Of a DNA stretch of 64,000 nucleotides, positions 15,944-60,214 are shown one piece after another; the first letter of the stretch is position 1; each line of letters starts with the position of its first letter. This DNA comes from Chloranthus sessilifolius. Taxonomy: Eukaryota; Streptophyta; Magnoliopsida; Chloranthales; Chloranthaceae. The notes beneath the pieces are model-generated. The model ran no database searches, was not told the DNA's origin, and saw only the letters and a program-made list of their open reading frames with translations. Position numbers and translations under genes: made by a program. The stretch spans positions 125,206,831 through 125,270,830 of the forward strand of contig CM037585.1 of NCBI GenBank assembly GCA_021018995.1, read 5' to 3'.

Positions 15944-15956
15944 TTGGTATCAAAGC
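15944..15956 (+). other. Primer-binding site (initiator Met tRNA type)
   Basis: TTGGTATCAAAGC begins one base after the 5' LTR. It matches the plant initiator methionine tRNA 3' end except at one or two positions (the perfect form elsewhere in the window is TGGTATCAGAGCC). Confidence 0.8.
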
Positions 15957-16033
15957 ATTTTCTTTTAGAAATTCTGACAATCATTCTTTTGTCAGAGCAT
16001 AGGGATTTCTGTTAATGAAAACTTTGTTTTCAC

Positions 16034-17429: not shown

Positions 17430-17572
17430 GTGAGTTTTCTTTTAAACAAAGAATTTCAATTCTAAAAATTTTAGATAGAGAAGGTGCATCCATATAGAAA
17501 ATATAAGAGAACTTGCATGTAATAAATTTTAGTATGATGATAGACATTATGTATATGTGTATTTATGATTAG
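17430..17572 (+). other. Intron-like segment between gag and protease
   Basis: 143 bp, markedly AT-richer than its neighbours. It starts GTGAGTTTTC and ends TTTATGATTAG. Removing it joins the gag frame to the protease frame exactly at the codon level: the flanking residues become DVIEG then TLQIYKKG, the same junction that is continuous in ordinary Tekay/Del polyproteins. The length is not a multiple of three, so unspliced RNA would end gag soon after the zinc knuckles, while spliced RNA would make gag-pol. An insertion or captured intron is the alternative. Confidence 0.6.
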
Positions 17573-20500
17573 GTACATTACAAATTTATAAGAAGGGAAG
17601 CGACGTGACATACGAAGCTCGAGTGTTGATAGACCCGGGGTCTACCCACTCATTTGTTACCCCTCGCTTCACAAAGAGGATGGAAGTCGACCCAGAGGAG
17701 TTAGACTTTGTGTTAACCGTGACCGCTCCTACTGGGAAATCGGTTGATACCGAAAAGGGTTGCAACTCCGTGATCGTGAGGGTCATGGATGGAGACGTCT
17801 TTGAGCTACCGGCGAACCTAATTCTGTTAGACATGCAAGGATTCGACATGATCCTTGGCATGGATTGGTTGTCAACTCACTGTGCGACGGTAGATTGCAA
17901 GAATAAGGTCGTCATCTTCAGACCCAACACGAGGAGATCGTTTAAATTTCGAGGAGAGAGGTCGACGCATATGCCACTTATCTCGGCAGTCAGAGCCGAG
18001 CGTTTGATTAGAAAAGGGTGTAGTGGATACTTGACATTCTTGAAGGAGCATAAAAAAGAGAAGAATGTTATCTCTGAGATAGCAGTTGTGCGAGACTTCC
18101 CCGATGTATTTCCGGAGGAGTTACCCGGATTACCTCCAGAGAGAAGTAGAATTCGCCATCGACTTAGCACCAGGAACGGAGCCTGTTTCTGAAGCACCAT
18201 ACAGAATGGCTCCTGCTGAGTTGAAGGAATTGAAGGAGCAGTTACAAGAGCTAATGGACAAGGGATTCGTTAGACCGAGCGTGTCTCCATGGGGAGCACC
18301 GGTCTTGTTTGTAAAGAAGAAAGATGGGTCAATGCATCTGTGCATTGACTGTCGACAATTGAACAAACTTACCATCAAGAATCGATACCCTTTGCCTAGG
18401 ATAGATGACCTGCTTGATCAACTACAAGGAGCAAGGTATTTCTCCAAGATCGATCTAAAATCGAGATACCATCAGTTGAGAGTCAAGGCAGAGGATATTC
18501 AGAAGACTGCATTCAAGACTCGGTACAGACACTATGAATTCCTGGTGATGTCGTTTGGGTTGACAAATGCCCCGATGTCATTCATGGATCTGATAAATAG
18601 GGTGTTTAAACAACACCTGGACTCTTGTGTCGTAGTGTTTGTTGACGACATCCTGATCTATTCAAAATCAGAAGAAGAGCATGAGAAGCACTTAAGAATA
18701 GCCCTACAAACTCTATGTGAACACAACTGTATGCTAAGCTAAGCAAATGCGAGTTTTGGTTAGAAGTTAGCTTTTTGGGACACGTTGTCTCAAAGCATGG
18801 TGTCACTGTAGATCCAGTAAAGATCGAAGTAGTAGTAAATTGGGAGCAACCAAAGACCGTGACCGACATCTGCAGTTTCCTTGGATTAGCGGGATACTAT
18901 CGACGTTTCGTTGAGGGTTTTTCAAAGATATCGGGACCACTCACGAGACTCACACGGAAAGACACAAGGTTCGAATGGAGTGGGGCATGCGAGAAGAGTT
19001 TTCAAGAACTCAAGAAGAGACTCACTTCAGCTCCAGTATTAGCGATTCCTTCAGGCAGTGGAGGGTTCGCAGTGTATAGCGATGCTTCGTATACTGGTTT
19101 GGGCTATGTGCTTAATCAACATAGAAAGGTGATAGCGTATGGGTCGAGACAGTTGAAAGGGCATGAGAAGAATTATCCGACACATGACCTGGAATTAGCA
19201 GCGATCATTTTTGCGCTCAAGATTTGGAGACATTACTTGTACAGTGAGACCTTTGAGATCTTCACCGATCATAAGAGTCTCAGATATCTGTTTAAACAGA
19301 ATGAACTAAATATGAGGTAGCGCAAATGGATGGAGTTTTTCAAGGACTATGACTGTTCCATACAGTACCATCCAAGCAAGGCTAATGTAGTAGCCGATGC
19401 CTTGAGTCGGAAGGGTTCAGTTCAATTGGCCAATTTAATTTTGGGAATGCATAAATGGAAGTTGTTTGAGGATCTGGCGCTGTATGATGCGAACATCGAG
19501 TCGCAAGCTACAGGAGCCTTTTTGGCTAATATATCAGTGAGACCGGTGATATTTGAGCATATCCACGAGTTATAGATGAAAGTCCCGGCGCTAACAAAGA
19601 TTCGTCAAGATGTAACTGAAGGCATTGGATCTGAGTTCTCGATCAAGGAGGATGGTTCCTTATTGTTCAAGGGCCGTCTTTGCAATCCGGACAATGCCGA
19701 CCTGAGGCGAACAATTCTTGATGAATCTCACAAATCCAATTATGCAATTCACCCGGGTAGCACAAAGATGTATCAAGACTTGAAAAGAATTACTGGTGGA
19801 GAGGTTTGAAACAAGACGTGGCAGAATACGTGTCGCGGTGTTTGACGTGCCAACAAGTGAAGATCGATCATAGACACCCTGCGAGATTATTGCAGCCTCT
19901 ACCTATATCGGAATGGAAGTGGGAATCGATCTCTATGGATTTCATTGTTGGGCTCCCGCGTACTGCAAAGAAGTACAATGCCATTTGGGTAGTGGTCGAT
20001 CGACTGACCAAGTCAGCGCACTTCTTGCCTTACAACACGATGTACACGGCGGAAAGACTGGCAGAGTTGTATATGAAAGAGTTTGTCCATTTGCATGGGA
20101 TTCCGACTAGCATTGTTTCAGACCGTGACCCATTGTATACATCAAAGTTTTGGAAGAAATTTCAAGAAGGAATGAGAACGCGACTAGATTTCAGTACGAC
20201 ATTCTATCCACAAACCGACGAACAGACTAAGAGGGTCAATCAGATCATCGAGGACATGCTTAGGGCATGTACGTTAGAATTGCAAGGATCGTGGGATCAA
20301 CACCTACCGTTGATTGAGTTTGCATATAAAAACAGCTTTCAGACGAGCATTGGGATGGCACCATATGAAGCACTTTATGGACGGCGATGTAGATCGCCCA
20401 TCAATTGGGAGGAAACGGGTGAGAAATTTGTTTTGGGACCCGAAATACTTGAAGATAATGCCACCTATGTTCGTATGATAAGGGCAAAACTCAAAGCGGC

Positions 20501-21041
20501 TCAGAGCAGATAGAAAAGTTACGCCGAGATCAAGCGGACGAGTGTAGACTTCAATGTGGGTGAACACGTGTTCGTGAAAGTGTCACCTATGAAGGGGGTG
20601 ATGAGATTTGGAAAAAGAGGGAAGTTAAGTCCCCGCTATCTTGGACTATTTGAGGTTCTGGGTCGAGTAGGGGAAGTTGCTTACCGCATTGGATTACCAC
20701 CATTATTTGATCAAGTACACAATGTGTTTCACGTATCTATGCTCAGGAAATATCTTAATGACCCTGATCACATGTTGAGCGGTCAATCATTTGAGATGCA
20801 TGAGGATATGACCATGATCGAAGAGCCGGCGGAGATTTTGGATCGAAAGGAACAAGTGTTGCGAACAAAAGTGATTCCATTAGTACTTGTTCGATGGAAG
20901 TATCATCCGGTCGAAGAAGCTACGTGGGAACGAGAGGCCGACGTGAAAGAACAGTATCTAGACTTGTTTACGCTTGAGAGAAAAAAAATAAAAAATTTAT
21001 ATCACCGCAAGCATGGTTGTGGATGTAACCATATGTTGTAA
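17573..21041 (+). pseudogene. pol: pol (PR-RT-RH-INT-chromodomain) of the Tekay-type element
   Basis: Protease: active site VLIDPGSTHSF near 17626 (usual form DSGAT/S). Reverse transcriptase: [11 protein letters not shown] and the catalytic FVDDILIYS at 18638. RNase [12 protein letters not shown] near 19072. Integrase: CLTCQQVK zinc half-site, SMDFIVGLP and VSDRDPLYTSKFW acidic residues, then the E-containing helix. Chromodomain: VRWKYHPVEEATWEREADV near 20892-20950. Lesions: a frameshift near 18145 in a GA-run, a frameshift near 18727, TAG at 19318 and 19573, a frameshift near 19800 inside the integrase zinc site, and TAG at 20511. All catalytic motifs survive, so decay is by scattered point lesions. 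The chromodomain would steer integration to marked chromatin. Confidence 0.92.
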
Positions 21042-21249
21042 TCCAATGTCGATCTTTTGATCAATGTATTCAATAGAAACAATTTTAATCCGCATAATGT
21101 TACTAATATGTCGAATGCGTACTTAGAATTCAACATAGCCATGACATAGCCGTGATGACGTATTTCGCAGAACCAATGACCAACTGGTCATGTTTTACCA
21201 AGGAACCAAAAGAGACAGAAAATTTTAAAATCTGAAGAGTTTGATCAAA

Positions 21250-21525
21250 ACCGATTAATCGATTTGGAAATTCGATTAATCGATTTTGGTCGATTAGTCG
21301 ACTGGCATGCGCTAGTGATTTGAAGAACTTCACGATTTCGATTAATCGAAGTGAAATTCGATTAGTCGACTGGCTCACGCCAGTGAGCTCGAAAAGTTGA
21401 AATTTTAAATGACCACGATTTCGATTAATCAATTTTGTGTTTCGATTAATCGATTTTGGAAATCGATTTCGCGCGGCTGAACCTAGTTTTGAAACTTGAT
21501 TAATCGATTTTAGAAATCGATTAAT
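21250..21525 (+). repeat. TCGATTAATCGA word cluster upstream of the extra ORF
   Basis: About six CGATTAATCGATTT-type words and several variants, in the same style as the LTR cluster but in different surrounding text. It ends about 15 bp before a strong TATA box, so here the words sit in a promoter-proximal position. Confidence 0.85.
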
Positions 21526-21537
21526 CGAACCAGGGCC

Positions 21538-21548
21538 TATATATATAA
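21538..21548 (+). promoter_or_regulatory. TATA box for the extra ORF
   Basis: CTATATATATAAATC gives a strong plant TATA. A start some 30 bases on would leave a leader of about 200 bp, containing TCTAGGG / CCCTAG (telo-box-like) words, before the ATG at 21776. This makes the extra ORF look like an independent transcription unit inside the retrotransposon. Confidence 0.55.
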
Positions 21549-21775
21549 ATCGAGGGGGATTTCTCCCCATTCAAAATCAAATTGATTTTTGGCTTTTGCG
21601 CGCCTTGCTATTTTCTTCTTCGAGCGACTTGGAGACCTAGGGTTTTCGCGGTTTGGGTTCGATATCGGATTGAAATCACTGACATTGGATCAAACGCCTA
21701 AGGTAAAACCCTAGATTTCGTTCTTCTTTCCGTTTCAAGCTACAAAAACCCTAGTTTTGCTATTTTATTTTCAAG

Positions 21776-23205
21776 ATGCCGCCTAAAACCCGGTTGTCTT
21801 CGAAGAAGGTAACGTCTAAGCTCCCTGTCCGACGTAAGAACGCCGCACCGCCACCACCTACCCCATCGCCCGTAAGAACACCATCACCGTCGGAATCGGA
21901 TACCACATCCGGTTCGACGAGCGCGTCTTCGCGCGAATCTTCACCAATTCCACCACCACCCGAAAATGTCACCCAACCAAATGAATGGTGGGCGGCTAAG
22001 ACCATTGAAGATGAGTTTATCTTCGATGTGGAGCTGTTTACAAACCCCGACGTGGCGGGCGAGATCCAATGGGCTCGAAACTACCTAGTAAAGGCCGGCC
22101 TCGGCAACCTTTTAAAACCACTACGCAGATCCTACTACCCTAGATTGGTTTGCCTATTTTACCAAGGGTTAAAGGAGGGGCCTACCGACGACGTTGTCAC
22201 GACCACCATTGAGGGTCGCGACTATACCTTCACTCGTCGCCACATCCACGAAGTCCTAGAATGCTATTTGGACTTTGTGCCCGAGACCACCCTTTTTGCG
22301 GAAGAGGTGAAATTTGAAGAAATTATAACCTGAATGACCAAGGGGAAAAAGGGGTCGGGATCGTCAATTAGGAGGGCCGATCTCCCCCATTACATGTGGA
22401 TGCTTGATTCCATAATCAAGTGCAACCTCTATCCGATGCGCCACGACACCGAGCGGGTGGAGTTAGTGCAGCAGGCACTGTACGCGGCCTTCTGTGGCCG
22501 TTGGTTTGACGCTACAAAGATCATCCTCGAGGGGATGGTCTACATAAAGGGGAAGTTGATGAAGGGCAACTTGAGGCCCAAAGAAAAGATGACGTATGCT
22601 CGCCTCATTTCGAGCATGCTGGAGTGTTACTCAGACGCTCCAGGGTACGCCATCTCGCCCCATGAGGAGAGGGCTACGGATCGCGTAAAACATTTCTCCA
22701 TTGCTTCATGGAGCGTAGCTACTGCTTTACCACTCAGGCCCAGAAGAGAGCATAGCACCACCACCACCACATCAGACCCACCGTGGGGGAGCACACCCAT
22801 TGATCCACCAAATGAGGGGCACCTCATGGCAATCAAGATCGCCACGCCACGCGTCAGTACGCCACGCATCGATTTCTTCATCCGCCAATGAATGGCTCGC
22901 CGACGCCCACGATAGAGGATGTGTTGGCCAGGATGGAGGCCAACAACGAGAGGATGAACCGACGGGTGGACTTCGATGTACCACACCCTACTGTACATCT
23001 ATCCGCTGACTACTCAAGCCGCTACGAGGCGAGTGTGCAGGTGATCGCTTTCCACACGTGCCGCTTTTCACGCCGACTACATCATTCGATGACTCTCGAC
23101 ACCCCAAGAGTCAGAAAGCCCGCCACGACGCACTCCAAACACCACCAGAGCCGCCAGTCTGTCAGAGCCAAAGAACGGATCAGCCAGAGAGGGGACTATT
23201 TGTGA
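21776..23205 (+). pseudogene. Extra sense ORF of the Tekay-type element
   Basis: ATG at 21776 (MPPKTRLSSKKV) opens a basic, Pro/Ser-rich N-terminus. A compact domain follows (WARNYLVKAGLGNLL, SYYPRLVCLFYQGLKEG, YTFTRRHIHEVLECYL). After a TGA at 22331-22333 the same frame runs on to 22891 (RADLPHYMWMLDSIIKCN and on). The likely C-terminus, with a helical IEDVLARMEANNERMNRRVD, is in another frame from 22888. The middle domain has the pattern I associate with the plant-specific retrotransposon domain called putative plant transposon protein (PF20167); that assignment is from memory. Function is unknown. It lies between pol and the polypurine tract, in the sense direction, with its own TATA. Confidence 0.65.
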
Positions 23206-23459
23206 CCACTTTTTGCATATATTGTACTGTTGTATTCAAATTCCAAATTGTAATTATCGACCACAGTTAAAGAGACTTGTAAATGTTGAAAAAATTCAAT
23301 AATGAAATACAGATCAACTTTTTGTAGATGTACTTGCATTATTTTTGTTTCTCGCACTGTGTGATGTGTAATTCATTTTTGTGAGTGGATACGTGACACC
23401 GCTGTGTGTGGGGTACCACACTAGAGCACCTTTGGGTTATTTTCGAGGACGAAAATTCC
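23206..23459 (+). other. Untranslated region before the polypurine tract
   Basis: AATAATGAAATAC near 23299 could serve as a weak polyadenylation signal for the extra ORF. No coding is evident. Confidence 0.4.
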
Positions 23460-23473
23460 CAAGGTGGGGAGAA
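23460..23473 (+). other. Polypurine tract
   Basis: AAGGTGGGGAGAA directly precedes the 3' LTR, as needed to prime plus-strand DNA synthesis. Confidence 0.85.
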
Positions 23474-25954
23474 TGTAATATCTCAAAAAATTGAGCGTTG
23501 AACTTTGACCTAGGGATCCGTGCCCGACTAGTCGTAGGGTTGACCAAGTGATGGTCAAACAATGAACTCATGGAGTGATGAGCTGACATAGTACAAATGT
23601 GACCTAAGCGTGGTGCATAGTGTGAGTTAGTGGTCACGTACACCTATCTCTGGTGTATGTGTTTAACACACAAGCAGGAGAGAAGATAAAAGGGTTTTAA
23701 TAACCCTAGAAATCCTTTTGTTTTGTTTGGTCAAGGAATTAAGAAGAGAGAGAGAGAGGGAGAAAACAAGAGGAGTTATTGAGGCTAGAAGTTAATGCAA
23801 ATCAAGAGGAGATTAGAGCATTTAATGCTGATTCAACGCTTGAGGAGCCGTTGAAGCGAAAACATGGAACCCTAGCCATCAAACCCAACAAATCAACCCT
23901 TTAAAGGATTTATTGAGGTATGTTGTATTAGATTTCAATACCTAGAGAATTGATAAGTTAAATTCAGTCTAGCATAGTTAATATGATAGATTAAAGACTT
24001 AGAAAAAGAAGGAAAAAGAAAAAGAACGAGTTTTGGAAGAACAGCCCGAAAGGGGGCTGAATCTGGCCCAATCGTTTAATCGAAATCGATGTTCGATTAA
24101 TCGATTTTGGCCCAGAAGTTGAAAAGTCAAGGATGCCCGATTTCGATTAATCGATTTGAAAGGTTGATTAATCGATTTGGGAATCGACTAATCGACTGGG
24201 TACCTCCAGTGGCTGGAGAAACAAGACCTGGGGAAATCGACTAATCGAGTTGGGAAATCGATTAATCGATTTTGGATTTCGATTAATTGATTTGGGATCG
24301 ACTAATCGATTTCGGACTTTCGACTACTCGATTTGAGAATCGACTTTACAATGCTAGGGATTTCAATTAATCGATTTTGGATTTCGATTAATCGATTTTG
24401 GGAATCGATTAATCGACTTTGGCAGATTTACTTGACTTTCTAGTTTGACTTTGAGATTCATGGAGGGTCTAGGACCTTCTCTATTGCATCTTTAGTGATG
24501 TGTTACATGTGTTGTAATGTACCATAAGTGGTACGTGTGAAAGCGAGCACAAGGAGCCGCGTGGGACCTTAATGCTTGGACCATCTGAGACTTGAGGTAG
24601 GGAACACCTTGAACATGTACTTTAATTGCAAGAGCATGTATGCAGTGATATAGATATCAATTTGAAAATGTTTTAACTGTGAAAAGCTTTGTGAAAATGG
24701 GTGTGTGTGTGACACTAAGAAAATGATAAAGGCATCAGTGTGATGCGAATAACTGAGACAAGTAAGTTAATGAAAATGAGACATCTCCAGGGGATGAGAA
24801 AGTGATAAGGGCATCAAGGTGATGCGAGTAATTTAGACATCCCAGGGATGTAAACAAGATTGAATAACTACTGTTGAGGCCTAACTGATATAAGATAGCA
24901 CTTTACACGGTGAATAACTATATGTAAAGCACATATTATTTTTGTTATTTGAGGTTTGATTAGGATACCCCACCGACGTGGCGGGATACCCACGACTGAC
25001 GTGGTAGGATATCCATGGCCGGTACGGCGGCCAATCCGTACACCTGTGCGGAGGTCTATCCGTACACAGTAAGCACATCCCAGGGATGTTGAGTTGAGAT
25101 TTAACCCCGCCGCCTATTGAGAAAGGGGTTGGGTAGTATTCCCAGGGAATACATATAACAACTGTCTATTTAAGCGATGATGGTGGGTATTCCATCGGGG
25201 CTCAATGCTTTATTGCTCGAGGATTACTTAAGTTGAAGATTTAAGTTTTGCTTTAGGCCTGTTCAGTGTCATTCATGATAAATCAACAGTAAAGTAAGGC
25301 ATGCAAATTACCAGTAAACTTGAATGCAAATCATTATCTTTTAAACTGTTTTTCTAGCAAATGCATAGACACATCATGCTTAGAATATCATGGAATATAT
25401 GTGAGATTTTGATTTATATGTTCATTATGTTGTTCCCTATTGAGCTAGGATGTAGCTCACCCTTTAGACTATACGTCGCAGGTTCATTGTTAGCAGTGGC
25501 CGAGGCTTCGGGAGACGTAGATCCGGGTGATTCGGATTACGTGCCTGGGGACAAGTTTGAGCCTCCTCCCGAAGACTTCTTCTAGGAGACTCTGCTGTGT
25601 ACTTTGATAGAGAGTCAGTTTTGAGAGCAGATTGTACGACTTGGTATGTCAAGCCTTTATTTTTGTCAAACAATGTAATTAGATAGATATGATTCTTTTG
25701 GGCGAACCATCTGGGGTGATCTGTTTATCACCGATGGTTCGCATCAGTTCTCTGTTCATGCAGTGGCATGAAAGTAGAACCGTCTTTTGAATATGCCAGA
25801 TGGGCATATTGATTTTTCCTCCTTATGCAGTTAATTGCTTTATCTTGTTAATTGTTGCTTGTTATACCATGGTTCCTTGCATAGTTTTGGGGTACGGTCT
25901 GGAGGATCGTGCTGATGGCACGGGTTTCGGGGTGCCGAAATCCGGGCTGTCACA
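23474..25954 (+). repeat. 3' LTR of the Tekay-type element
   Basis: Starts TGTAATATCT and ends GGGCTGTCACA. It is near-identical to 13462-15942. Differences visible by eye include loss of one word-containing segment near 24160, an extra GACGTGGCGGGATACC-type segment near 24975, and a changed TATA region. The total length is again 2481 bp because the indels balance. Confidence 0.95.
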
Positions 25955-38799: not shown

Positions 38800-39900
38800 T
38801 TAATCTCATGTAAGTTAGAATGATGATATGCTCCTACCGACACTAATGACTCACGTGGAACGGACACACTATCAACCTCCTCTTTGGGAAAAAAACTATC
38901 CTAACACAATCTAAGGATTTCACAACTATTTCCTCGTCCTCATCACTTGGAATCGTATCTAGTTCATAAACTTTTTCAAATTCGTCTTGTTCCTTATCAT
39001 GTTCCTCTTTCGTGGGACATTGAGCGGCAAAGTGCTTGAATCCTTGACACTTATAACACCTATTTTGACCAGTAATTTTTAATCTCTCAAGTAACTTTCC
39101 CTTCCCTTATCGATCTAGGAACTCAAAGGTTTGGACGAAATAAATTTCTGATTGTTCACCCCTTCCGTAGAGATGACCTTGGATTCAACATTGTAAGAAT
39201 TGGGTCGCCCACTGATAGGTGTTTCAACATATTTTCCCAACTCTTGTACCATGGCATAACAATCCTCTAACGTATCAACGTTGTAGGGAATTAACTCCTT
39301 TTGTAATTCGGGATGAAAACTTGTCCTAAACCTAGAAAGCGTGACTTGGCTCGGTTCAGACACATTAGCTCGCATCACAAACTCCTCAAATTTGGCAATA
39401 TAATCGGTAACAGACATATTCCCTTGGCAGAGATTTTGCCATTGGTCTAGGAGGCGTCGTGTGTAAGATGAAGGGACATTTTTCATGGAGCTTGTCTTTC
39501 ATGTCCACCCATGTATTAAAGGGTTCGTAGTTGAGCATCGCCCATCGGTCTAATTTCATCTTCGCCTATCTCACCTTTCTCTCCTTCGTCATATCATACC
39601 AATCGAAATAGTGCTCAATATCTGAAAACCAATCAAAAGTTGGAGCCTCGATCTGAATGGTTTTGACAAACTTCTCATCCGGATCACTCAACGGTTCACG
39701 ACGTTCAAACCTTCTTCTCGGGGGTGTCCTGCATGCCTAGTGTTAAACCGTCTATCCATGGTTCTCCTAGGTGGTGTTCTATTGGATATCTCATTCAGGA
39801 CATCTTGAAATTGTCCCATACGGGCTTCCACATGAGTTTCCATTTGTGCAAATTGTCATAAGAAATCGGATAGATGCGGCAAGATCATCAGAAGCCATCG
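38800..39900 (-). pseudogene. gag: gag of the pol-less chromovirus
   Basis: The minus-strand frame 39486-39115 is open for 123 codons with gag-core text (MSVTDYIAKFEEFVMRANV, FRTSFHPELQKEL). Just upstream in broken frames are IEAPTFDWFSDIEHYFDWYD and AKMKLDRWA, the first half of the gag core. A CCHC knuckle, CYKCQGFKHFAAQC, lies at about 39017-39058 in another frame. It continues into an acidic stretch near 38950. It would form particles; the frame breaks show it is dead. Confidence 0.8.
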
Positions 39901-48116: not shown

Positions 48117-48580
48117 AGAAAAATTTTAAAATAATCCTTGAACTTTCACCCTATTATCAATAATGCATCTAAATTATTGATAATATCATATAGACACTCA
48201 AAGTACACTTAAGTTCATCAACTAAACCCTTATCGTCACCTTCCGTAAATGGATGAACAGAAAACGTTGAGTTGACATACAACTCAGCAAAATAACATGT
48301 GTGGCACCAAACGGTGTTTTATTAATGATAGGGTAAAAGTTCAGGGGTTATTTTGAAATTTTTTCAAAATCAAGTCCTGATTACGTTGGGTGCCACGCAT
48401 GTTATTTTGTTGAGTTGTATGCCAATTCAGCATTTTCTGTTTAGCCATTAACGAAAAGTGATGGTAGGGATTTAGTTGATGAACTTAAGTATACGTTGAG
48501 TGCCTATTTGATATTATCAATAGTTTAGGTGTGTTATTGATGACGGGGTATAAGTTCAGGGGTTATTTTAAAAATTTTCC
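48117..48580. mobile_element. Foldback Mutator-like MITE with 9-bp TSD, intact copy
   Basis: Perfect 9-bp duplication TTTAAATTA at 48108-48116 and 48581-48589. The arms pair over about 200 bp (AATTTTAAAATAATCC... against ...GGTTATTTTAAAAATT). A related copy was split by the 49.7-60.2 kb insertions. Confidence 0.85.
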
Positions 48581-49735: not shown

Positions 49736-50292
49736 AACTCCAAGCCCTAATCAACTGGATCACATCAGCACCTCTGGCAGACATCAACCATCGCCCTCAT
49801 AAGGAAACTCTCTCTCTCACGAATAGCTTGCAATAGGACAGTGGTGTTAGTGCAGTACCTCCCTCACGCCTATACGCATGACACAACATGTCACACACAC
49901 ACACTCTCTCTGTCTCTCTGTCTCTCTGTCTCTCTCTCTCTCTATAGGAAAAATTTCAAAATAATCCCTGAACTTACATTTCGTCATCAATAACAAACCT
50001 AAACTATTGATGTGATGACCCGACTTTTCCAATCCTCTCGGTATAGGAAAGGCCGGTTTGCCAACTTATTGATTTCTCAATAAGTCGCATAACAAACAAA
50101 AGCTGGCAGCATAATGTAGATCTAAACAGAATAAAAAAAAATAAATAGAAACAAAGGTTAAACAAAATATATCACCCAGAGGAACCAGGAAGAACCACCG
50201 GTGATGGCCAATCTGATCACCTAAACAATGGTTCCTAATGATGGTTGTTCCTCAAGTGATATCAAAATATGCAAAACAAGGCCTCGGGCCCA
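49736..50292 (+). repeat. Duplicated host block, left copy
   Basis: Matches 57226-57795 along its whole length in the same orientation, with scattered substitutions and microsatellite length changes. It contains a (TC)n tract, the left arm of a split MITE (49949-50010) and the first 280 bp of a minus-oriented gypsy LTR (from 50011). Because it contains host and transposon text, it is pre-insertion DNA copied when the viral segment integrated. Confidence 0.9.
49949..50010 (+). mobile_element. Left arm of the split foldback MITE
   Basis: GGAAAAATTTCAAAATAATCC through CTAAACTATTGA is the arm seen intact at 48117. It ends in ATTGA, the LTR duplication. The rest of the MITE resumes at 59715. A second copy of this arm is in the duplicated block at about 57455-57518. 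Confidence 0.85.
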
Positions 50293-50547
50293 CGCTACCA
50301 CAACATAGTAGTAAATCTAAACAGATCATTATAAGTCATCCATAAAAACCGCTGAAGAAGACGATGAAGTAGTTCATACGCCCATGATTAGCCACCCTAA
50401 TCACGACTCACTACCCCTCAAGATTCCAACGCTAGCCACCCGCCATATGTAATTATCACGGGCTTAGCCGGACATGGCTCTGATACCAAACTCAGAGTAG
50501 GGGGAAGACGTGATTGCGGAAGAGAAGATGAGCTAAATAAAGAAACT
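50289..50547 (-). repeat. Viral terminal repeat, low-coordinate copy
   Basis: Matches 56969-57229 with a few substitutions and a 2-base indel. Contains the primer-binding site. Joined to host DNA at 50289-50292 through the shared tetranucleotide CCCA. Confidence 0.9.
50476..50488 (-). other. Viral primer-binding site, low-coordinate copy
   Basis: Minus-strand TGGTATCAGAGCC, complementary to the 3' end of plant initiator methionine tRNA, the standard caulimovirid primer. Confidence 0.9.
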
Positions 50548-50794
50548 TTAATTCATAAACAAAAGCCTAATAAAGCAAACTTATATTAAACAACTCAAAA
50601 CATATAGAATCTTACCACTATACACACACTATGCAGCTACTATGCATGCATTAAATATATACAAAGTTAAGAGAAGGCTTACCGATACGTTGCACTTCTC
50701 CGATACAAACTAGAAAGAAAACAAAGAAAGAACAAGAGAGAAAGGGAAAGAAGTAGGTGAGAATTTTTTCGGTGTCCTGGACAAGCCCCAGGCT
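50548..50794 (-). other. Leader region between promoter and primer site
   Basis: About 300 bases separate the predicted start from the primer site, the same order as in CaMV (promoter upstream of the primer site, with a long leader continuing to ORF 1 on the circle). Plain minus-strand AATAAA is not visible here. Confidence 0.5.
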
Positions 50795-50798
50795 AACC

Positions 50799-50926
50799 TT
50801 TTTATAGATGAATGCGGATTTGAAGTGGTTTGAAATCTGCCGCTGAGTGGGACACGTGTGCTGAGTGGATTGGTTGCAGTCGCTTCGTCCCTTGATAATT
50901 GTGTTCTGACGTAAGGGCATGCGTCA
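50799..50926 (-). promoter_or_regulatory. Viral full-length-transcript promoter with as-1-like element
   Basis: In minus sense: TATAAAAA at 50806-50799, CACGTG (G-box) at 50853-50858, CCAAT at 50869-50873, and an as-1-like pair of TGACG/CGTCA motifs at 50907-50926 (plus-strand TGACGTAAGGGCATGCGTCA). The as-1 element is the TGA-factor site known from the CaMV 35S promoter; spacing to TATA is about 100 bp, larger than in CaMV. In this linear copy the promoter lies at the 3' end, pointing out into the host block rather than into the viral ORFs. Confidence 0.7.
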
Positions 50927-51064
50927 GTGCTTCATAATTGGAATGATGACTTCATGGGTTGCGTTATGGACAGCTGGTGAGGCTATTGGCCGACAATAAT
51001 CAGTAAGATTCTTGGATGATTAAAAAATTGCTTTATTGACTGGTTTGGCTTTTGTGGCTAATCT

Positions 51065-52456
51065 TCATGGTTCTCTGCGATTGTCCAGATTCTGGTAAAA
51101 TATTGAATCGCTAGATAGGGAGCTATCCGAATCAGATAAGTTGAGAAGCTGGTCTTCTTCTTGGATAGATGCTTCAATTTCTAAATTAGCAGGCAGGTGG
51201 AGACTATTTCTGCTGATCATCTGTTGGAGAAAATTTTCTACTTCTTCTTCTTGTTGAGGAGTCGTCATATATTCCATAGGGAAATTAGTGAGGAAAATTC
51301 GTCGACCATCAGAAATTTTGAAAGCATAATGGTCCTTAGAAATTTCTCTGGCCTTTTGAGAAAATTGTATTAGGGAATGAATCCAATAGGATTTGGGAGA
51401 GATTGACAGGGCACTAGACTGTGCTAAAGGATCTGCTTGGTTGATATATTCCATCTCATATATCTGTGTTTTGCGAAAAATCTAAATTTGATATGGTTGG
51501 AAGAATTGTTTTCTAGATCGCCATCCAAGAGTGCTGGTGATCATAAAAGTAAGATAAATGTCTTTGCGTAAACATTTGGAGGCATGAAAAACCATGGATT
51601 TAATTATTCAGGGAAAGTTTGGAATATTGGAAAGTGGAAAAATAATTTGGTTGATCAATCCCCAATCAAGACCTTGGAAAAGATTATGAGGATAATCAGG
51701 AGTGAACAAATAAATTTTTGGGAGATAGTAACCCTGAAGATGGTTGATAAATTGATAATTCTGCAATAAGATTTGTTTGATCTGAGTAGCCGAATCCTCA
51801 ATTTGAGATACAATATTTTGGGAAATGTCAATTGGAAGGACATGTTTGGCCTTTTCAAACATGCAGATTCTTTTAAGGCGATGCAGAATTGGATCATTTT
51901 GTTTCACCAATTCAATGAGGTTGAGGAAATAGGAAATTTTCTCAATGGAAAAGGTTTCTTCTTCCCAATTAACATTCTTGAGTAATGAGGTTAGGCCTTC
52001 ATAAAGTTGTTGGGTGTGGGTTTCTTGAGCCTGAATTTTGGATTCCAGAATGCTCAAATGTTGTCTGACTTTTCTTTTATTATTGACAAGATTTTTTCAT
52101 ACTCCATTAATTTCTTGGTACATGGATGAATCAATGCGTGGGCTGATAAAATTGGATATATGGCTAATGTTAAAATTTTTGGATTTGGAGTATTCTTTGA
52201 CTTCCATAATAGGAGATTGGGCGAGGAGATGCATGGTTTGATAGGTTTGAAAAGCAGATTTGCCTTCTCTGATGGAATTATACATTTGGTATAATGGGCT
52301 AGGAAAATTATAAATTTGGCTATGGCAGGATTGCCATGAAATGTATATTCCTAGTTGGTGTCCTTTAAGGACAACATAAACTTTTCTTTGTGGCGAAAAA
52401 TTATCTTCTGTTGAATTGGCTGCATTGGCAGAAGAGCTTCCTGCAAGACTAGTCAT
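51065..52456 (-). pseudogene. Caulimovirid viroplasmin/transactivator-like ORF
   Basis: ATG at 52456-52454, overlapping the previous ORF's stop by 8 bases. Residues about 25-60 (KVYVVLKGHQLGIYISW, then FPSPLYQMYNS) match the viroplasmin (Cauli_VI, RNase H1 N-terminal-like) fold. The rest is helical and ends in an acidic Ser/Asp-rich tail. About 460 codons in one frame, interrupted by TGA at 52097, a stop at 51608 and TAG at 51482. CaMV P6 (about 520 residues) forms inclusion bodies and drives reinitiation; the same role is inferred. That all three lesions are point stops with the frame preserved suggests decay after integration. Confidence 0.75.
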
Positions 52457-55400
52457 CCTCTGCACAAAAGGTAGTAGTGAGCTGGTGATTTCCTATTGTA
52501 GGATCACCGCATAAATATAAGACCGCTGGATTGGTGGTATGCAAATGGGAATAACCAATTCGATTAGTGTGAGTAGTGTGATTGTAGTGATGATCCCCCC
52601 AGAATTGGGTATTACTGGTAAGGGAGACACAACAAAGATGAGGAAAGGAGTCCTCAGAAGGAGAGGAGAGAAAGTGGAATCGAAGGGGATGACCCTGAAA
52701 TTGGACAGAAATGCCGTGAAAATCAACTCGAGTAAAGGGAAAGATGGAAGAAATAAAAGGAATCCCTAAGATAAGGGTTTGAGTGATATTTGGGAGAATC
52801 ACAAAGGAAGTGGGAATGGAAATATTATGATGCTGGATAGCAGCATGGTTAAGTTTGTGGAGGATAGGTATGGGATATCCACTAGCATTGGTGAGACTCT
52901 GATGAGCGGAGGTCAAATAGAAGGAAGGGACTAATCCCTCTTGAAGACAATTCATGTCAGCACCACTGTCAATAAGGGCGATGATGTCATAAATTGTATA
53001 ATTGGAATTAATAAATAAATTGACCTTGATGTATCATTTTGGGGAGGATACCTGTTGGAGAGTGTTCAGGTAAGAATGTGATGTGGAACTAGAAGAGACT
53101 TCTTTGTTTTCCAAATGATTGAAGCGATTATTAATGGTGGAAATTTCTTTAGCAAAATGTTGCTTTAGAATAATTAATTCATTGTTGAGAGATTCTATTT
53201 GTTGTTGGAAATTGGCAACCATAGAAGAATTATGGGTAGCTTGGTCATCTGGTTAGAAGAATTATGGGATTCTAGCCGATGAAAGAGTTCTCTAATAGAG
53301 TAAGGATTTTCTACTATTAGAGACTTTTTAGTTTCTTTTTGAGCTGTAGATATACATGCTTCAATTAATTTGGATTTCATTATTGGATCTTCAGTTTTAT
53401 CAACTAAGTCCAATAACGATTGTTGGGATTCGGAAAGAACATTGATACTGAGATTGTTCATGGCAGCAAATGCTTGCCAAGAATCATTTGAAGTATGAAT
53501 ATGATTACATTTGCAATTTGCAGGGTGGTCATCTGCAGAGGAGGAAGATGACGAAGTGGAATGAATTTCATTATCAGACTCAGAAAATTCTGAATAATCA
53601 GGACTAGAATCTAAACAAATTTTTGAAAGGGTTAATTTCAGACCTTCATCATGAATTTGATTTATTCTTTGTTCAGTTGTGCATTTATTGGCATAATGAC
53701 CAAATCGATGACATTTGTAACATTTAATCTCTCTTTAGGGTCGATTTGTTGATTTTCTTCTTTTCTCACGATATTTGCGTGAAAAAGAAGGATTCCTGGG
53801 TTCTCGATGTTGTCGAGTAGAATTTCTATTTTCGCGATGTTGTTGATAAGAAGAAGGATTGTTGGTTTGTTTGAAAATATGATGACATCGTTCAGAGGGA
53901 TGATGATAATTAGAGATTTCTCTATTATCTCGTCCTTTTGAAGGATAATTGATTTTTGTGTCATAAGCAAATTGATCACAAAATTCTCCCAATTCCTTAC
54001 GACCAGTAAGTTGTTGCTGTTTTAATTGTTGGTGTAATTTTAAGTCATTACACAATGTTAATCCTTCACGCACAATGCTACTTTGGAGTTGTCCATAAGT
54101 ATATTGATTGTAAGTGATACTTTGATCATCAGGATTACGGAGTTTATTACGGACCTTCTCAGCAAATAAGCTGGGAAGCCCATCAATGAATTTGACTTTC
54201 CAATATTCAGTATTGGCATCACTTCGTTACATGACTTTTGTCATAAACACATCTTTATACCATCTGAAATGGGTTAAAGATGGGCAACGGAGATTTTGAA
54301 GTAGTTCTCTACTTCTTTCATATTGAAGATTCCAAGAACCAACAAAATGAAAAATGATGGTTTGGGTTAATGTATAAACTGCATCTTCCCTAGTTTCCAT
54401 TAGGCCAGTAAGATCATTTTTGACTGGTTTAGTTGAAGTTAAGATTTCTTCACGTTGAGTGGCTGTGAGAACATTATCCCACCATCCTTTCAACATACCG
54501 TGAAAATCCGAGTAATATATCGAGCAATTGTTTGATCAGAATTTTGATGTTGTTTTAAGATGGTGCTGTACATAAAAATTTTATGTAGAACAGCAAAAAT
54601 TCCATATTCGGATTTACCATCAATGTTCCATTCATAAATGGATCGATAATCATAAGAATTTTGAATATCAATATGATCTTCTTCATAAAGAAGATCCTGG
54701 GGTGTAGGTCTATGGTAGTAATATCGAGTATTACCACCATCCCAATTATACTGGAGTTTATTAAGCTCCATGCTATTTTATAAGGATTCGAAATTATTTT
54801 GAATTTCTTGTATTTATGCTAAATTGGCATTTTCTCTATCAGTCAATACATTGATTTGAAAATTATTATTTTTCTTTTCTGGATTAAGTGATAAAGCGTG
54901 TAACCTGGAGGTTAGTTTATCAATAAATTCCTCTTGTTTTATCATATAAGATTTTGATGACAGATTTAGTCCAAAAATTTCTAGGGGAGGTTTTATGTTT
55001 GGTTGTTCGACCTTTAAGGTTGATGTTTTGTTTATTGGTGGAGAAGAAAGAATATTTTCAATCCTATTTAATTGCATACTAATTGTTTGTAAATTTAAAT
55101 TAGTAAAATTATTTTGTTTATACAGATGTGATAAATCAACTTTTGTTGAATGAGGGATAGGTTCAACAGGTTTTATGAAAGCAGTGGCTTCCAAAGTAGC
55201 TGTTGAATTAGGTTGAGTAAGTTTGAGGGCTTCAACAGGAGGATGAATCGACTGAACGATTGAACCATCAAGCTTCTGCCATTCCTTTTTAAAATCTTCA
55301 AGAAGAAATATTTTCCTTTCTTCTTGGTTCATTTCAAGATATTTTGTTGCTTTGAACCAAGTAACAAATGGAATTACTTGATAAAAAGTTTCAATATATT

Positions 55401-55548
55401 GATAAAATTGTTCTTTGAATTCTTGCAATTCTGATGCAGAAATTTTTTTAAAATACCATTCACGGAATGGTGCATATTTATCTTGCTGAAATTCAGCATT
55501 AATTTCTTGTCTATTAATAACAAAGTTTTCAGGTTTTATAAAAGCCAT
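52449..55548 (-). pseudogene. Caulimovirid coat protein-protease ORF
   Basis: ATG at 55548, 28 bases after the movement protein stop. Order: a charged N-terminal region (55548-54817); coat protein core (LKGWWDN near 54490, YWKVKFIDGLP near 54205, ELGEFC near 53985); CCHC knuckle CYKCHRFGHYANKC at 53722-53681; Ser-rich acidic linker; coiled coil (53222-53100); aspartic protease with IDSGAD near 52975 and ILGIPF near 52770. It then ends at TAG 52449 without any reverse transcriptase. Lesions: in-frame stops at 54814, 54778, 54227, 53735 and 53034, and frameshifts near 54510 and 53230. Capsid assembly and polyprotein cleavage are the inferred roles. Confidence 0.85.
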
Positions 55549-55576
55549 AAAAAACTTTATTAATGAATTGAGAAAT

Positions 55577-56623
55577 TCATCTCGCTAGCAGTGGGAGATT
55601 CCCTTGCTGTTGGGTATATATCCCATGAGGAATCTGTTGTTCAGAAACTTGGATTCCTTCCAGATTGGGTTGATTAAATTCAGAAGAAACAAATGAGCTA
55701 GCTTCTGAATAAGATGATCGAGCAGTTGAGGGTATAGAAACTCTATAAGAACCTCGAGACCTCGAATCAGAATAAGAACTCCTATAAGAAGTTATGTGAG
55801 ATGTAGATCTATCAAATTTTAAGATTACATCTCCCTGGGCATTTTGAACAATTTGTTCAATTTCTTGGTTTAAAATCGGTTTAGGAGAGGCAGCTTGAGG
55901 TATACGCCAAGCGTAAGGAAAAGTAATATTTTTTCATTCACATAGTTTTTGTGTAGCAACATTAGTGGTTGCACTATTAGTCTCAATTAAGACTGTTCTT
56001 CCTGGTTCATTTTGATAATTAATTTTAGGAACCAGAGAAGTCATCACCTTATAATGAAGGTGATAGATCAGAGCAATGGTCTTTGATCCAGGCATAAAGT
56101 TGTATCCCTCAATTTGGAGATTAAGGGTACAAGCATGTAAAATATTTTTATCTGTCAAAGATAAAGTTAAATTTGGGAAAACATTGTAGTATACTGGACC
56201 AAGGCATAAGCTGGTCTCAATAGCGGCCATCAGAGAGGATCGCCAATCAAGGCATCTAGCATCTCTGAGAGTGCTAAGTATACTAGTATTTTCCAGACCC
56301 AATAAGGTCAAAGGTTTGAAGGCAACCTGAATACATCCTAAATGTAGGAAATTGAATTTGTGAAGGTCATGCAGAAGATCTTCATTTGAAAGCAATTGAA
56401 AACCTTCATTTTGACTTTCTTCATTTATACTGAGAGTTTGCTCAGTAGTCTTGATTAACATGTCGGTGGTCCAATCTTTCCATCCATATTGGTAGATTGT
56501 TTTAGGATTGATGGAAGGAATTGTCCATCGATTCAATTGACTTTGTTGGTCATCAATTTTAGACCATTTGTCTAATTGTTTATTTTTAATTGATTTTTTG
56601 ATTGGAAAGTTGAAAAGAGACAT
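55577..56623 (-). pseudogene. Caulimovirid movement protein (30K superfamily)
   Basis: ATG at 56623 follows a 23-base A run. Residues 96-105 (GCIQVAFKPL), 119-123 (LRDAR), 142-150 (GPVYYNVFP) and 155-160 (SLTDKN) mark the conserved core of caulimovirid movement proteins, which carry virus through plasmodesmata. A TGA at 55934 interrupts the frame. It then stays open (IPQAASPKP, a Ser/Arg-rich tail) to a TGA at 55577. Total about 348 codons, in the usual range. It is a separate ORF, not fused to the coat protein. Confidence 0.85.
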
Positions 56624-56633
56624 TTACAAAAAC

Positions 56634-56656
56634 TTTTTTTTTTTTTTTTTTTTTTC
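56634..56656 (-). repeat. 23-base A run before the movement protein start
   Basis: Minus-strand poly(A), ending 11 bases before the ATG at 56623. It could be an expansion after integration or a captured RNA tail. Confidence 0.9.
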
Positions 56657-56968
56657 AAACAGTAAAAACAAGAAAGGGTAAAAGAGCTTTTGGTAAAATC
56701 AATAAGACTGTAATTACATATGGGAATAGTAATGTTGGAATAGTTTTACTATAGTGAATAGTGATTCGGAATACTATTCATCAGCATAGTAAATTACTAT
56801 TTACCTTATTCTCCATAAATTTCCATGGACTTCTTACAGAAATTCATTTAGATTTACTACTAGATTGCTGTTGCAAAACTGCGTCCGTCTATGATAACTT
56901 TTACGGGGAATCAACCGGCAACAACGCAATCCTTGCTACAATGCCATCAAGTCATCCCAACGCGACTT
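56657..56968 (-). other. Viral leader
   Basis: About 310 bp between the terminal repeat and the A run, with no long ORF. Caulimovirid leaders normally carry small ORFs and structure; GTGAATAGTGATTCGGAATAC / GTAATAGTAATG-like words repeat here. Confidence 0.5.
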
Positions 56969-57229
56969 CCCACGCTACCACAACATAGTAGTAAATCTAA
57001 GCAGACCATTATAAGTCATCCATAAAAATCGCTGAAGAAGACGATGAACAGTAGTTCATACGCCCATGATTAGCCACCCTAATCACGACTCACTACCTCT
57101 CAATATTCTAACACTAGCCACCCGCCATATGTAATTACCACGGGCTTAGCCGGACATGGCTCTGATACCAAACTCAGAGTAGGGGGAAGACGTGGTTGCG
57201 GAAGAGAAGAGGAGCTAAATAAAGAAACT
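56969..57229 (-). repeat. Viral terminal repeat, high-coordinate copy
   Basis: Direct repeat of 50289-50547. Joined to the host block at 57226-57229 through the shared tetranucleotide AACT. Confidence 0.9.
57158..57170 (-). other. Viral primer-binding site, high-coordinate copy
   Basis: Minus-strand TGGTATCAGAGCC. It lies about 535 bases upstream of the movement protein ATG, the normal position at the start of the genome. Confidence 0.9.
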
Positions 57230-57413
57230 CCAAGCCCTAATCAACTGGATCACATCAGCACCTCTGGCAGACATCAACCATTGCCCTCATCAGGAAACTC
57301 TCTCTCCCTCTCTCTCTCTCTCACGAATAGCTTGCAATAGGACAGTGGTGTTAGTGCAGTACCTCCCTCACGCCTATACACATGACAAAACATGTCACAC
57401 ACACACACACACA

Positions 57414-57454
<41 letters not shown>

Positions 57455-57795
57455 GGAAAAATTTCAAAATAATCCCTGAACTTACATTTCGTCATCAATA
57501 ACAAACCTAAACTATTGATGTGATGACCTGACTTTTCCAATCCTCTCGGTATAGGAAAGGCCGGTTTGCCAACTTATTGATTTCTCAATAAGTCGCCTAA
57601 CAAACAAAAGCTGGCAGCATAATGTAGATCTAAACAGAATAAAAAAAAAAAAAGGAACAAAGGTTAAACAAAACATATCACCCAGAGGAACCAGGAAGAA
57701 CCACCGGTGATGGCCAATTTGATCACTTAAACAATGGTTCCTAATGATGGTTCCTCAAGTGATATCAAAATATGCAAAACAAGGCCTCGGGCCCA
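57226..57795 (+). repeat. Duplicated host block, right copy
   Basis: Second copy of 49736-50292. It is 13 bp longer because (TC)n and (CA)n/(TA)n tracts differ. It continues at 57796 into the remainder of the LTR, whereas the left copy breaks at CCCA into viral DNA. Confidence 0.9.
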
Positions 57796-59714
57796 TAATT
57801 CCAAAATAATTCTAACTCAAAAAGTATCAAAAAGACAAAATCGGGTCACGGAAAGAACTCCTCCACTGGTGTCTCAAGCTCGTCCTCAGGGATATAATCA
57901 GAGTCCTCTAGATCGAGATCATTTGAGCCTAAGTCAGTCCCAACACCTGTGACGTATAGTAGGGATGAGCTAACATTGAAGCTCAATAGAGGAAACTTAT
58001 CTAAATTATATTTTATCATAAGTAAAGGTTTTCAAAGACAAAAATCGGATCAAATATGATTTTTCAAAAGATTCATCATAGACTAAATTCCAATTCTAAA
58101 CAGTAAAACAAAAGAGAAATTATCATGTCTAAAGTTCTGATCTAATGCATGCATCTTGTCTTAAAATTATAACTTAATTGTATCTCTCAAATTGCATACT
58201 AGCATGAGAGCACGAGTATCACCGATGGAAAATCCTACTAACCATCGTCATTCATGAACCCTTTTTTGGAAAATGTAATAAGCCCCTACGTAATGAGCAA
58301 AACTTGTGCAAGGCTAAAATATTGTCAACATGATTAACAAAATCTAGGGTTTTGTTCTAATGAACCTCAAATCAAATGCGGATGCTAAACATATCGGATT
58401 TTATGTATATAATACATATTCGGATTTTCTGAGTTCTAATACAAATTTCACATTCAAAGGTGAGGTTCAGAATTTCCAAATTTCTGAGTTTCTTATTGAT
58501 ATCACAGTTCAAAGTTCTTAATCATGTTGCCTTAACAGAAAAAAAAAATTCAGAATTTATGCTTGAACAAAAATAACCAAATACATAGAATAAAATGCAA
58601 CTAAGTCTTAGGGTTTCCCTACCTCAACTTGACTTGAATTGGTCAAAAACACATCAAGAGATCCCCACAGTGGATACAAATTAACACCTACAAGTATTAA
58701 CCCCACAACAGTGTCAAAAAGTCAATCGATCCAAACAAAAACTAACATGACCTCTCTAAGACATTTTCAAAAACCAGAAAAACAGGACAGAATTCGATCA
58801 TCGAATTCCAAATTCGATGGTCGAATTTGAATTCGATGCTTGAATTTGAATTCGAGCATTGAATTCACCCAAAAGTGCATCAGTCATAATTTTCCAAATT
58901 CGATCAACGAATTCAAATTCGATGGTCGAATTTAATTTCGACCCTCGAATTTGTCCAGGTTTGTGTTTCTCAAATTGTCTCCAGTCATTCAATTTTTTTC
59001 ATCCAAAACACTAATCTGTTATCTTTTCTATATGCACCACCTATCTAAACTATTCTAAGCAAAAATAACTTTAATCAAAGGTGTTTAAAAGCCTACCTCT
59101 TGAAGTTAAATCCTTTGGCTCCAGTTGCTCCAAATTCAAGCACCGGAACAAGCAATAAGTTCCAATTGGACTCCAAAAATCAGTCCATCTCCAACCTTGC
59201 TATCAGGGCAAATGTTAGCCCAGAACATTCACCAAAAGAATGGTTCACTCTCCCCTAGCCTTCCTTCTCAATATCTTAAACAAATCAGAAGCAAGGCACA
59301 AGGCTTATCAATGGCTGAGATGGGGAGAGGGATTAAGATCACAAGGTTCTAAACAAAAGAAGTAAAGGGTTGCAAAGGCTTCAAATTTGATTCTCACGAG
59401 AGGGAGGAAGGATGCAACTTCTCCTCCACTCTTCCCTCTTATAAAACAATAAGCAAATAAAAAAATCTAGATCTTTGTGTTTACAATTCTATCCACTTAA
59501 CTTGCAATTATTTCTAGTGTTAAGCGCAAACACACAACCTAGCGTATAAGTCACAAAAAAATTGACTTCTACAAGTCCAAACTAAAAAAAATCCTTTAAC
59601 CACAATTCTCATCATACCTTAACCTATTCAAATCAACCTGATTTGTCTCGTAACTTTTTTGGGCACGGTTATCAAGGTAATCAAAATCAGGTAAAAAATA
59701 TTCAGGATATTACA
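57519..59714 (-). mobile_element. Solo LTR of a gypsy element, minus orientation (host of the virus insertion)
   Basis: Plus-strand TGTGATGACC... to ...GGATATTACA. In reverse complement it starts TGTAATATCC and ends GGGTCATCACA, the same termini style as the Tekay LTR here. ATTGA flanks it: 50006-50010 (also 57514-57518) and 59715-59719. No internal region is seen, so it is a solo LTR of about 2.2 kb before the virus arrived. TTCGATGGTCGAA-type words cluster at 58795-58955. A TATAAGAGGG box (minus) lies near 59433-59442. Confidence 0.8.
58795..58955. repeat. AATTCGA/TCGAATT word cluster
   Basis: About eight ATTCGA or TCGAAT words, many in facing pairs such as ATTCGATGGTCGAAT, in 160 bp of the solo LTR. 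Confidence 0.85.
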
Positions 59715-60214
59715 ATTGATAATATCAAATAAGCACCCAAAGTACACTTAAGTTCATCAACTAAACCCCTACTGTCACCTTCCGTTAATGGCTGAACGGA
59801 AAATGCTGAGTTGGCATATAACTCAGTAGAATAGTGTGCGTGACACCCAACATTTAGGTGCGTTATTGATGACAGGGTGAAAGTTCAGGGGTTATTTTGA
59901 AATTTTTTCAAAGCAAAGTCCACGCTGAGTTGGCATACAACTCAGCAAAATAGTGTGCGTGACACCCAACATTTAGGTGCGTTATTGATGACAGGGTGAA
60001 AGTTTAGGGGTTATTTTGAAAATTTTCCAAAGCCAAGTCCTCACCATGTTGGGTGTCATGCATGCTATTTTGTTGAGTTGTATGTCAACTCAACGTTTTC
60101 CGTTCAATCATTAACGGAAGGTGACGGTAGGGTGTCTATTTGATATTATCAATAGTTTAGGTGCGTTATTGATAATGGGGCGAAAGTTCAGGGAATATTT
60201 TAAAAATTTCCCAT
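59715..60214 (+). mobile_element. Right part of the split foldback MITE
   Basis: Continues the MITE arm interrupted at 50010. It ends TATTTTAAAAATTTCCC next to a (TA)n tract. It contains a 119-bp tandem duplication (GCTGAGTTGGCAT at 59805 and 59924) that the intact copy at 48117 lacks. Confidence 0.85.

Follow-up and report, generated by a model that had tools for sequence, protein, structure and literature searches.

A caulimovirid unit without reverse transcriptase integrated in Chloranthus sessilifolius, a probable component of a bipartite genome

A 64,000-nucleotide stretch of the Chloranthus sessilifolius genome (assembly GCA_021018995.1, contig CM037585.1, positions 125,206,831 to 125,270,830; hereafter the window, numbered from its first letter) contains, at 50289–57229, an endogenous caulimovirid insert that encodes a movement protein (MP), coat, zinc knuckle, protease and an open reading frame (ORF) with a viroplasmin domain, and in which no reverse transcriptase (RT) was found. 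The insert is very probably an integrated copy of one component, called here component B, of a bipartite caulimovirid; copies of its RT-bearing partner, component A, occur elsewhere in the same genome.

The RT-less unit at the locus

On the minus strand, which is the viral sense, the unit runs in the order leader, MP, DUF7588 region, coat core, zinc knuckle, protease, viroplasmin ORF, last ORF piece and intergenic region, and comprises the following features (dN/dS, ratio of nonsynonymous to synonymous substitution rates; A-B distances, between components):

49736–50292, no strand: host segment duplicated at the target, left copy
50289–57229, minus (viral sense): the entire viral insert, lacking RT: a single circle of 6,680 bp and 0.26 kb of terminal redundancy
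50289–50547, minus: terminal redundancy, 3' copy in viral sense, with primer site; 249/261 identical to 56969–57229
50477–50488, minus: initiator-tRNA(Met) primer binding site, 12 bases
50548–51064, minus: intergenic or promoter region, common to the partner; TATAAA at 50806 in viral sense
51065–51481, minus: last reading-frame piece of component B, with no known domain; dN/dS 0.36
51608–52096, minus: continuation of the viroplasmin ORF past an in-frame stop; dN/dS 0.22
52097–52456, minus: viroplasmin-domain ORF, first piece (Cauli_VI, or RNase H1 N-terminal domain); dN/dS 0.20
52449–52456, minus: ATGACTAG, overlap of the protease stop and the viroplasmin-ORF start
52449–52679, minus: 76-codon tail behind the protease, matching neither RNase H nor component A
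52449–53033, minus: aspartic protease frame including its C-terminal tail
53195–53734, minus: part of the coat region with zinc knuckle and acidic tail
53735–54813, minus: coat core (DUF7746, weak Caulimovir_coat)
54814–55933, minus: region behind the MP, with DUF7588; its first 772 bases are common to the partner at the nucleotide level, the remainder is specific to B
55934–56623, minus: MP (30K family), common to the partner; mean A-B distance 0.054
56624–56968, minus: leader, common to the RT-bearing partner; mean A-B distance 0.063
56969–57229, minus: terminal redundancy, 5' copy in viral sense, with primer site
57159–57170, minus: second copy of the primer binding site
57226–57795, no strand: host segment duplicated at the target, right copy

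This gene content had been proposed from the letters of the window alone, and Pfam agreed with it, giving minus-strand matches to the MP (PF01107, 1.1e-14), DUF7588 (2.2e-10), DUF7746 (2.5e-17 and 8.7e-08), the RVP protease (5e-06) and Cauli_VI (6.5e-10), with the matches to Caulimovir_coat (0.011) and to the zinc knuckle (0.0027) lying below the cut-off. The ORF list and the sequence likewise bear out the original prediction at the junction: the protease frame ends in TAG about 170 codons after IDSGAD, and the viroplasmin ORF begins within this stop, in the 8-base overlap at 52456–52449. In line with the original claim, neither RT nor RNase H was found, with no Pfam match to either in the scanned reading-frame pieces of the unit, ORFs in other frames included; the largest gap between its coding ORFs is about 160 bases by arithmetic on the ORF list, leaving no room for an RT there. 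The protease tail is coding-like in the protease frame, on a par with the other ORFs of the unit, and its candidacy as a remnant of RNase H was rejected, since Pfam, tblastn and hhalign found no RNase H match in it.

These features fit an assignment at the level of the family, Caulimoviridae, whose marks are a 30K-family MP, an aspartic protease, a tRNA-Met primer site and, on component A, a caulimovirid RT-RNase H; no integrase family occurs among the Pfam matches of ten A pieces or of the B pieces. The same tRNA-Met primer motif is given for another caulimovirid in PMC4411674. The 50 fold matches shown for the MP, all at most 24% identical, did not single out a genus. Protein searches returned five protease and 24 MP relatives, mostly single pieces carrying no information on architecture, with one (P0027) joining MP and DUF7588, and none for the viroplasmin piece; MP and protease scans of viral contigs, and an MP scan of genome contigs, confirmed no relative.

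The two copies of the terminal redundancy (50289–50547 and 56969–57229) are 95% identical, implying the circle of 6,680 bp. Both joints of the insert have a 4-base shared sequence, CCCA and AACT, and the host duplication that flanks it, of about 0.56 kb, is far above the usual length of a target-site duplication. Such a duplication with short shared joints is what capture during break repair would predict, and resembles repair of a widely staggered break. Kimura two-parameter distances are 0.040 between the redundancy copies (10/259) and 0.022 between the host copies (9/415, repeat-rich middle excluded), which, at a plant substitution rate of 6.5e-9 per site and year, would place the insertion roughly 2–3 million years ago. 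Stops and frameshifts interrupt the ORFs of the insert, as in an old insertion.

Recurrence of the junction and the RT-bearing partner

We searched the plant's own assembly (2.17 Gb); all genome counts below are lower bounds, taken from the best-scored places (40 for the junction, from 410 first-look candidates; 94 for RT; 150 each for MP and coat core). A 501-base query spanning the junction of protease and viroplasmin ORF matched end to end in 39 of the 40 scored places, at 84–100% identity and on 13 chromosomes, one of these matches falling short of two end bases; the 40th match is partial, yet spans the junction. Several independent loci with this RT-less junction had been named as what would support a real component, and the end-to-end match is found at 38 scored places besides the window. 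Because a best-scored list favours unbroken matches, it cannot alone show that RT is absent there, and a fairer test comes from 20 places fetched around MP matches irrespective of the junction, ten of which follow the order of the window and ten of which belong to class A, as described below. RT at the junction in other copies, which would have spoken for a local loss, was found in none of the 11 B copies read through, window included. The overlap was unchanged in all ten B copies inspected; the eleventh, L012, carries a 2.64-kb insert at the junction with no RT match, so that RT at the junction in some copies was rejected. This insert looks like transposon-derived DNA, since 43 bases at its end match the window at two places, near 15.9 and near 25.9 kb. 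Another copy in the window's order, L010, ends inside the protease.

Deletion of RT at a single locus is rejected by the recurrent junction together with the B copies lacking RT. The original prediction had argued against deletion from the tidiness of the overlap, which is weak, as the overlap would survive if part of a protease-RT ORF were deleted in frame; we judge the absence of RT to be genuine because the junction recurs.

Between B copies, dN/dS was 0.20 and 0.22 for the viroplasmin-ORF pieces, 0.26 for the protease, 0.26–0.40 for the MP and coat pieces and 0.36 for the last ORF, as compared with 0.20 for the RT of component A (copies covering <60% of a piece left out; the class-A reference counted twice, as reference and as L022). 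These values point to purifying selection on the RT-less copies and, being low, suggest that RT-less circles most likely kept replicating as coding entities. The copies also appear independent: among 78 pairs of flanks only two showed similarity, namely the duplication of the window itself and one 378-base repeat at 78%. The informative flanks were one-sided host flanks of ten loci plus the two of the window, that of L018 having turned out to be mostly a component-A fragment.

The predicted RT-bearing partner sharing the promoter and primer-site region was found, and it has the MP in common as well. Ten loci diverge from the window after base 749–772 of the region behind the MP, the break by which class A was first assigned; in these ten, the A protease was matched in nine and the A RT likewise in nine (only partially at L028), whereas none matched the coat core. 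Component A has the intergenic region, primer site, leader and MP as in B, followed by zinc knuckle, protease, RT-RNase H and a second ORF, and the A stretch up to the common intergenic region is about 4 kb, measurable in five loci. Pfam was run on A pieces of three loci (L014, L022 and L025), and L022 gave RVP (8.5e-8), RVT_1 (5.8e-35) and RNase H (3.6e-21). The closest solved structure to the A RT-RNase H is 8r0s, an 'Enzymatic polyprotein' (4e-91), which we take to be the RT of cauliflower mosaic virus (CaMV). The proteases of A and B are about 51% identical in protein. Homology of the B downstream ORF with the second ORF of A was considered and rejected, with nothing significant in tblastn or in hhalign, the latter run on copies covering at least 50% of a piece. 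The second ORF of A (L022:4645–5957) matched nothing in Pfam and is without detectable relation to B ORFs; it contains a short tryptophan-rich motif resembling one in the coat core, for which profile comparison was not significant.

Linkage across the genome separates the two gene sets. Of 150 scored MP places, 19 have RT 2.64–2.74 kb downstream, 18 have the RT-less junction 3.77–3.88 kb downstream, and none has both. One further place, on C1, has RT at 5.4 kb; it is of class A, with the RT interrupted by about 2.6 kb and the coat core absent, and was rejected as a unit with both coat and RT. When 150 scored coat-core places were set against the 94 RT places, RT fell inside the coat-core unit in none, the same-strand RT downstream lying, where scored, at 7.06, 7.21 and 8.70 kb; the junction follows 28 scored coat cores at 1.44–1.48 kb. 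Among scored places, then, RT occurs only on A and the coat core only on B, and the A-specific matches in the B loci L009 and L018 fall outside the B unit.

The 94 places scored with the A RT query are 80–100% identical to it. Five of those at 80–86% were viewed upstream: in L029, L031 and L032 the zinc knuckle follows the DUF7588 region with no coat core in between, and L030 and L033 are broken upstream of RT. Four of the five have the MP, inverted in L031 and partial in L033, and it is absent from L030.

A block common to both components

Mean distances, computed from copies covering at least 75% of a piece, are given for the primer-site block, leader, MP, coat start and intergenic part in this order. 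They were 0.055, 0.063, 0.054, 0.086 and 0.161 between A and B, 0.058, 0.073, 0.060, 0.090 and 0.175 among A copies, and 0.055, 0.049, 0.051, 0.061 and 0.144 among B copies, so that the A-B means in the shared block fall inside the span of the A-A and B-B means. Components of one bipartite genome are held to share >87% nucleotide identity in the MP and >90% in the intergenic region; the A-B distance of the MP ranges from 0.015 to 0.093, within the former figure. For the latter, the primer-site block (0.055) and leader (0.063) are close, but the upstream intergenic part, with its mean of 0.161, ranges from 0.039 to 0.263. In the tree of primer site, leader and MP, A and B are intermixed, with seven changes between them, and A as one clade is rejected (approximately unbiased test, p 6e-106); in the intergenic tree they are intermixed with five changes (one-clade p 0.008). 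Together, distances and trees form a pattern expected of recombination centred on the shared block, comparable to that of the grass viruses in PMC5491270, whose intergenic and MP sequences are likewise described, in the part of the paper at hand, as homogenised by recombination.

A and B also occur joined. Head-to-tail chains run from A to B at L034 and L035 and from B to A at L036, L037 and L003, and at seven scored places the coat core lies 6.2–6.4 kb behind RT, the A-B chain distance. L018 has a class-A fragment beside the B unit on the opposite strand, and L009, in addition to its B unit, matches the RT and ORF2 of class A. Two features looked for in a bipartite virus, compound A-B insertions and numerous independent loci, are thus both present. 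Of 28 same-strand MP spacings below 12 kb, 21 are of 6.4–6.8 kb. MP units form an array at C11:97.33–97.39 Mb, mostly at 6.4–6.7 kb spacing and some with equal scores, and RT copies cluster at C2:91.37–91.63 Mb; both are probably local amplification of integrated units.

The bipartite reading, its rivals and known systems

Complementary architectures, a homogenised shared block, mixed chains and selection on RT-less copies support two components of one virus, from which we infer that the two complement each other in trans and are packaged together, and that A depends on B. Both circles, each with promoter, primer site and MP, would be transcribed, and the RT of A would copy both pregenomic RNAs from the common primer site; the coat of B would package both components, B supplying a viroplasmin-type factor besides. 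Recombination or template switching would keep the shared block alike, and end joining at chromosome breaks would capture the circles, one at a time or in head-to-tail chains. The original prediction had left the choice between a bipartite component and a defective, satellite-like circle; the partner supports the former, and a satellite of an intact helper became less likely with a partner that lacks the coat core and with no unit, among the 150 coat-core and 94 RT places scored, in which RT follows the coat core.

One rival concerns the viroplasmin ORF, which might be a host fragment of RNase H1 type, captured where RT would otherwise lie and serving no viral function. Cellular RNase H1 has Cauli_VI as its N-terminal domain too, the best structure match of our piece being ribonuclease HI (1qhk, 8.4e-6), and a TAV homolog is unrecognised in Petuvirus or Florendovirus according to the consulted portion of a review (PMC5902531). 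However, its low dN/dS across copies and the overlapping start codon in every inspected copy favour a working viral protein, so that we consider this explanation unlikely; an origin of the ORF by capture is possible.

About equally improbable, and the main rival to the bipartite reading as a whole, is that the RT-less unit is a non-autonomous satellite and A a coat-less defective derivative, both depending on a complete unsegmented helper. Such a pairing has been proposed for eRTBVL2 with eRTBVL in rice (PMC5491270, in the portion used), and an older or rarer helper could escape searches of best-scored places. Yet none of the 150 scored coat-core places has RT within the unit, the one MP place with an odd RT distance has no coat core, nor have the three diverged RT lineages whole enough to inform, and between them A and B supply every gene of the set. 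Loss of RT by post-integration deletion, at this or one ancestral locus, followed by spread through duplication of chromosome segments, finds some encouragement in the equal-scoring tandem arrays on C11 but is hardly credible given the junction at 39 scored places on 13 chromosomes, unrelated sampled flanks, purifying selection in the RT-less ORFs and heterotypic A-B chains.

Several observations weigh against a bipartite genome. Both components are known here from integrated DNA copies alone, with no episomal virus, transcript or particle seen. Of the 150 MP places, 112 are tied to neither RT nor junction, all counts being best-scored subsets, and in the C11 arrays some of the copies look locally duplicated. 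Only three of the five deeper RT lineages viewed were whole enough to inform, so an unsegmented helper could be missed. L017 matched neither A protease nor A RT and is of class A by its breakpoint alone; it was counted as A in distances and trees, where it groups beside other A copies. The divergence of the proteases would mean that A and B have long not shared everything, and the coat-start tree, with two changes, does not reject A as one clade (p 0.38), which would confine A-B mixing to the block nearer the primer site. Finally, the protease tail of B, at dN/dS 0.57, is weakly constrained, and wrong frames gave 0.60–2.25, values as low as 0.60 making the codon test noisy.

In Caulimovirus, Cavemovirus, Solendovirus and Soymovirus, RT lies upstream of TAV on one circle. 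As here, TAV (viroplasmin) of these genera has the Cauli_VI domain in an ORF behind the pol-side genes; unlike them, the RT here sits on the partner circle.

Bipartite florendovirus pairs have been described from grapevine, rice and sorghum (Geering et al. 2014, PMC4241990), and the accessible text of a review adds sugar beet (PMC10377300). In the sections of PMC4241990 that were available, component B (VvinBV, VvinDV, OsatBV and SbicV) is of 5.5–6.9 kb and has MP, coat protein (CP) and aspartic protease with no RT, and component A has RT with a deletion of CP; a common intergenic region and MP, compound insertions and many loci complete the likeness to our pair. In contrast, florendovirus B is one polyprotein, whereas the downstream ORF here is separate, with its 8-base overlap and viroplasmin domain. 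In florendovirus B the C-terminal extension shares homology with ORF2 of A, a similarity not detected here, and that B misses only the N-terminal portion of RNase H1, of which no remnant, C-terminal portion included, is detectable in our unit. A viroplasmin domain on B, in an ORF not detectably similar to ORF2 of A, makes this a variant of the published bipartite kind.

Among grass viruses, as far as the available part of Chen et al. 2017 (PMC5491270) goes, ePVCVL resembles our B in having no RT/RNase H (RH) and has an 'SFKTE' domain in common with eRTBVL2, where this domain occupies the place of RT/RH; ePVCVL2, like our A, has RT/RH and no CP. That text gives the SFKTE domain no function and no identity with viroplasmin; the domain may turn out to be a divergent version of the viroplasmin domain found here. 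A published case combining a separate viroplasmin ORF on an RT-less component, lack of likeness to ORF2 of A and lack of an RNase H remnant was not found in the literature searched, most subscription papers being outside it.

More tentatively, the coat-bearing circle may also carry a TAV-type factor, in which case the RT circle would need its partner for the coat and perhaps also to translate polycistronic RNA or to suppress host defence. If true, labour would be divided more fully here than in the bipartite florendoviruses published so far. In the literature covered, as far as its texts were available, claims of split genomes in reverse-transcribing viruses come from plant fossils only. A single genome holding tens of scored copies per component, mixed chains and a homogenised block makes direct tests possible, bringing within reach the stability of the partition, the frequency of recombination between components and the past presence of an unsegmented helper. 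It also suggests that surveys based on RT only overlook half of such a virus.

Elsewhere in the window, ORFs resembling retroelement pol (16019–21038) lie within about 15900–25954; together with the two places matched by 43 bases of the L012 insert, they suggest an element of Ty3 type bounded by terminal repeats. At 38927–39061, outside the unit, a zinc-knuckle-like stretch matches the viral coat region (E 6e-4) and is probably retrotransposon gag. On both sides of the insert, at 48118–48580 and 59712–60212, inverted and direct repeat blocks of about 50–200 bases, mostly 80–88% alike, are probably small host transposons.

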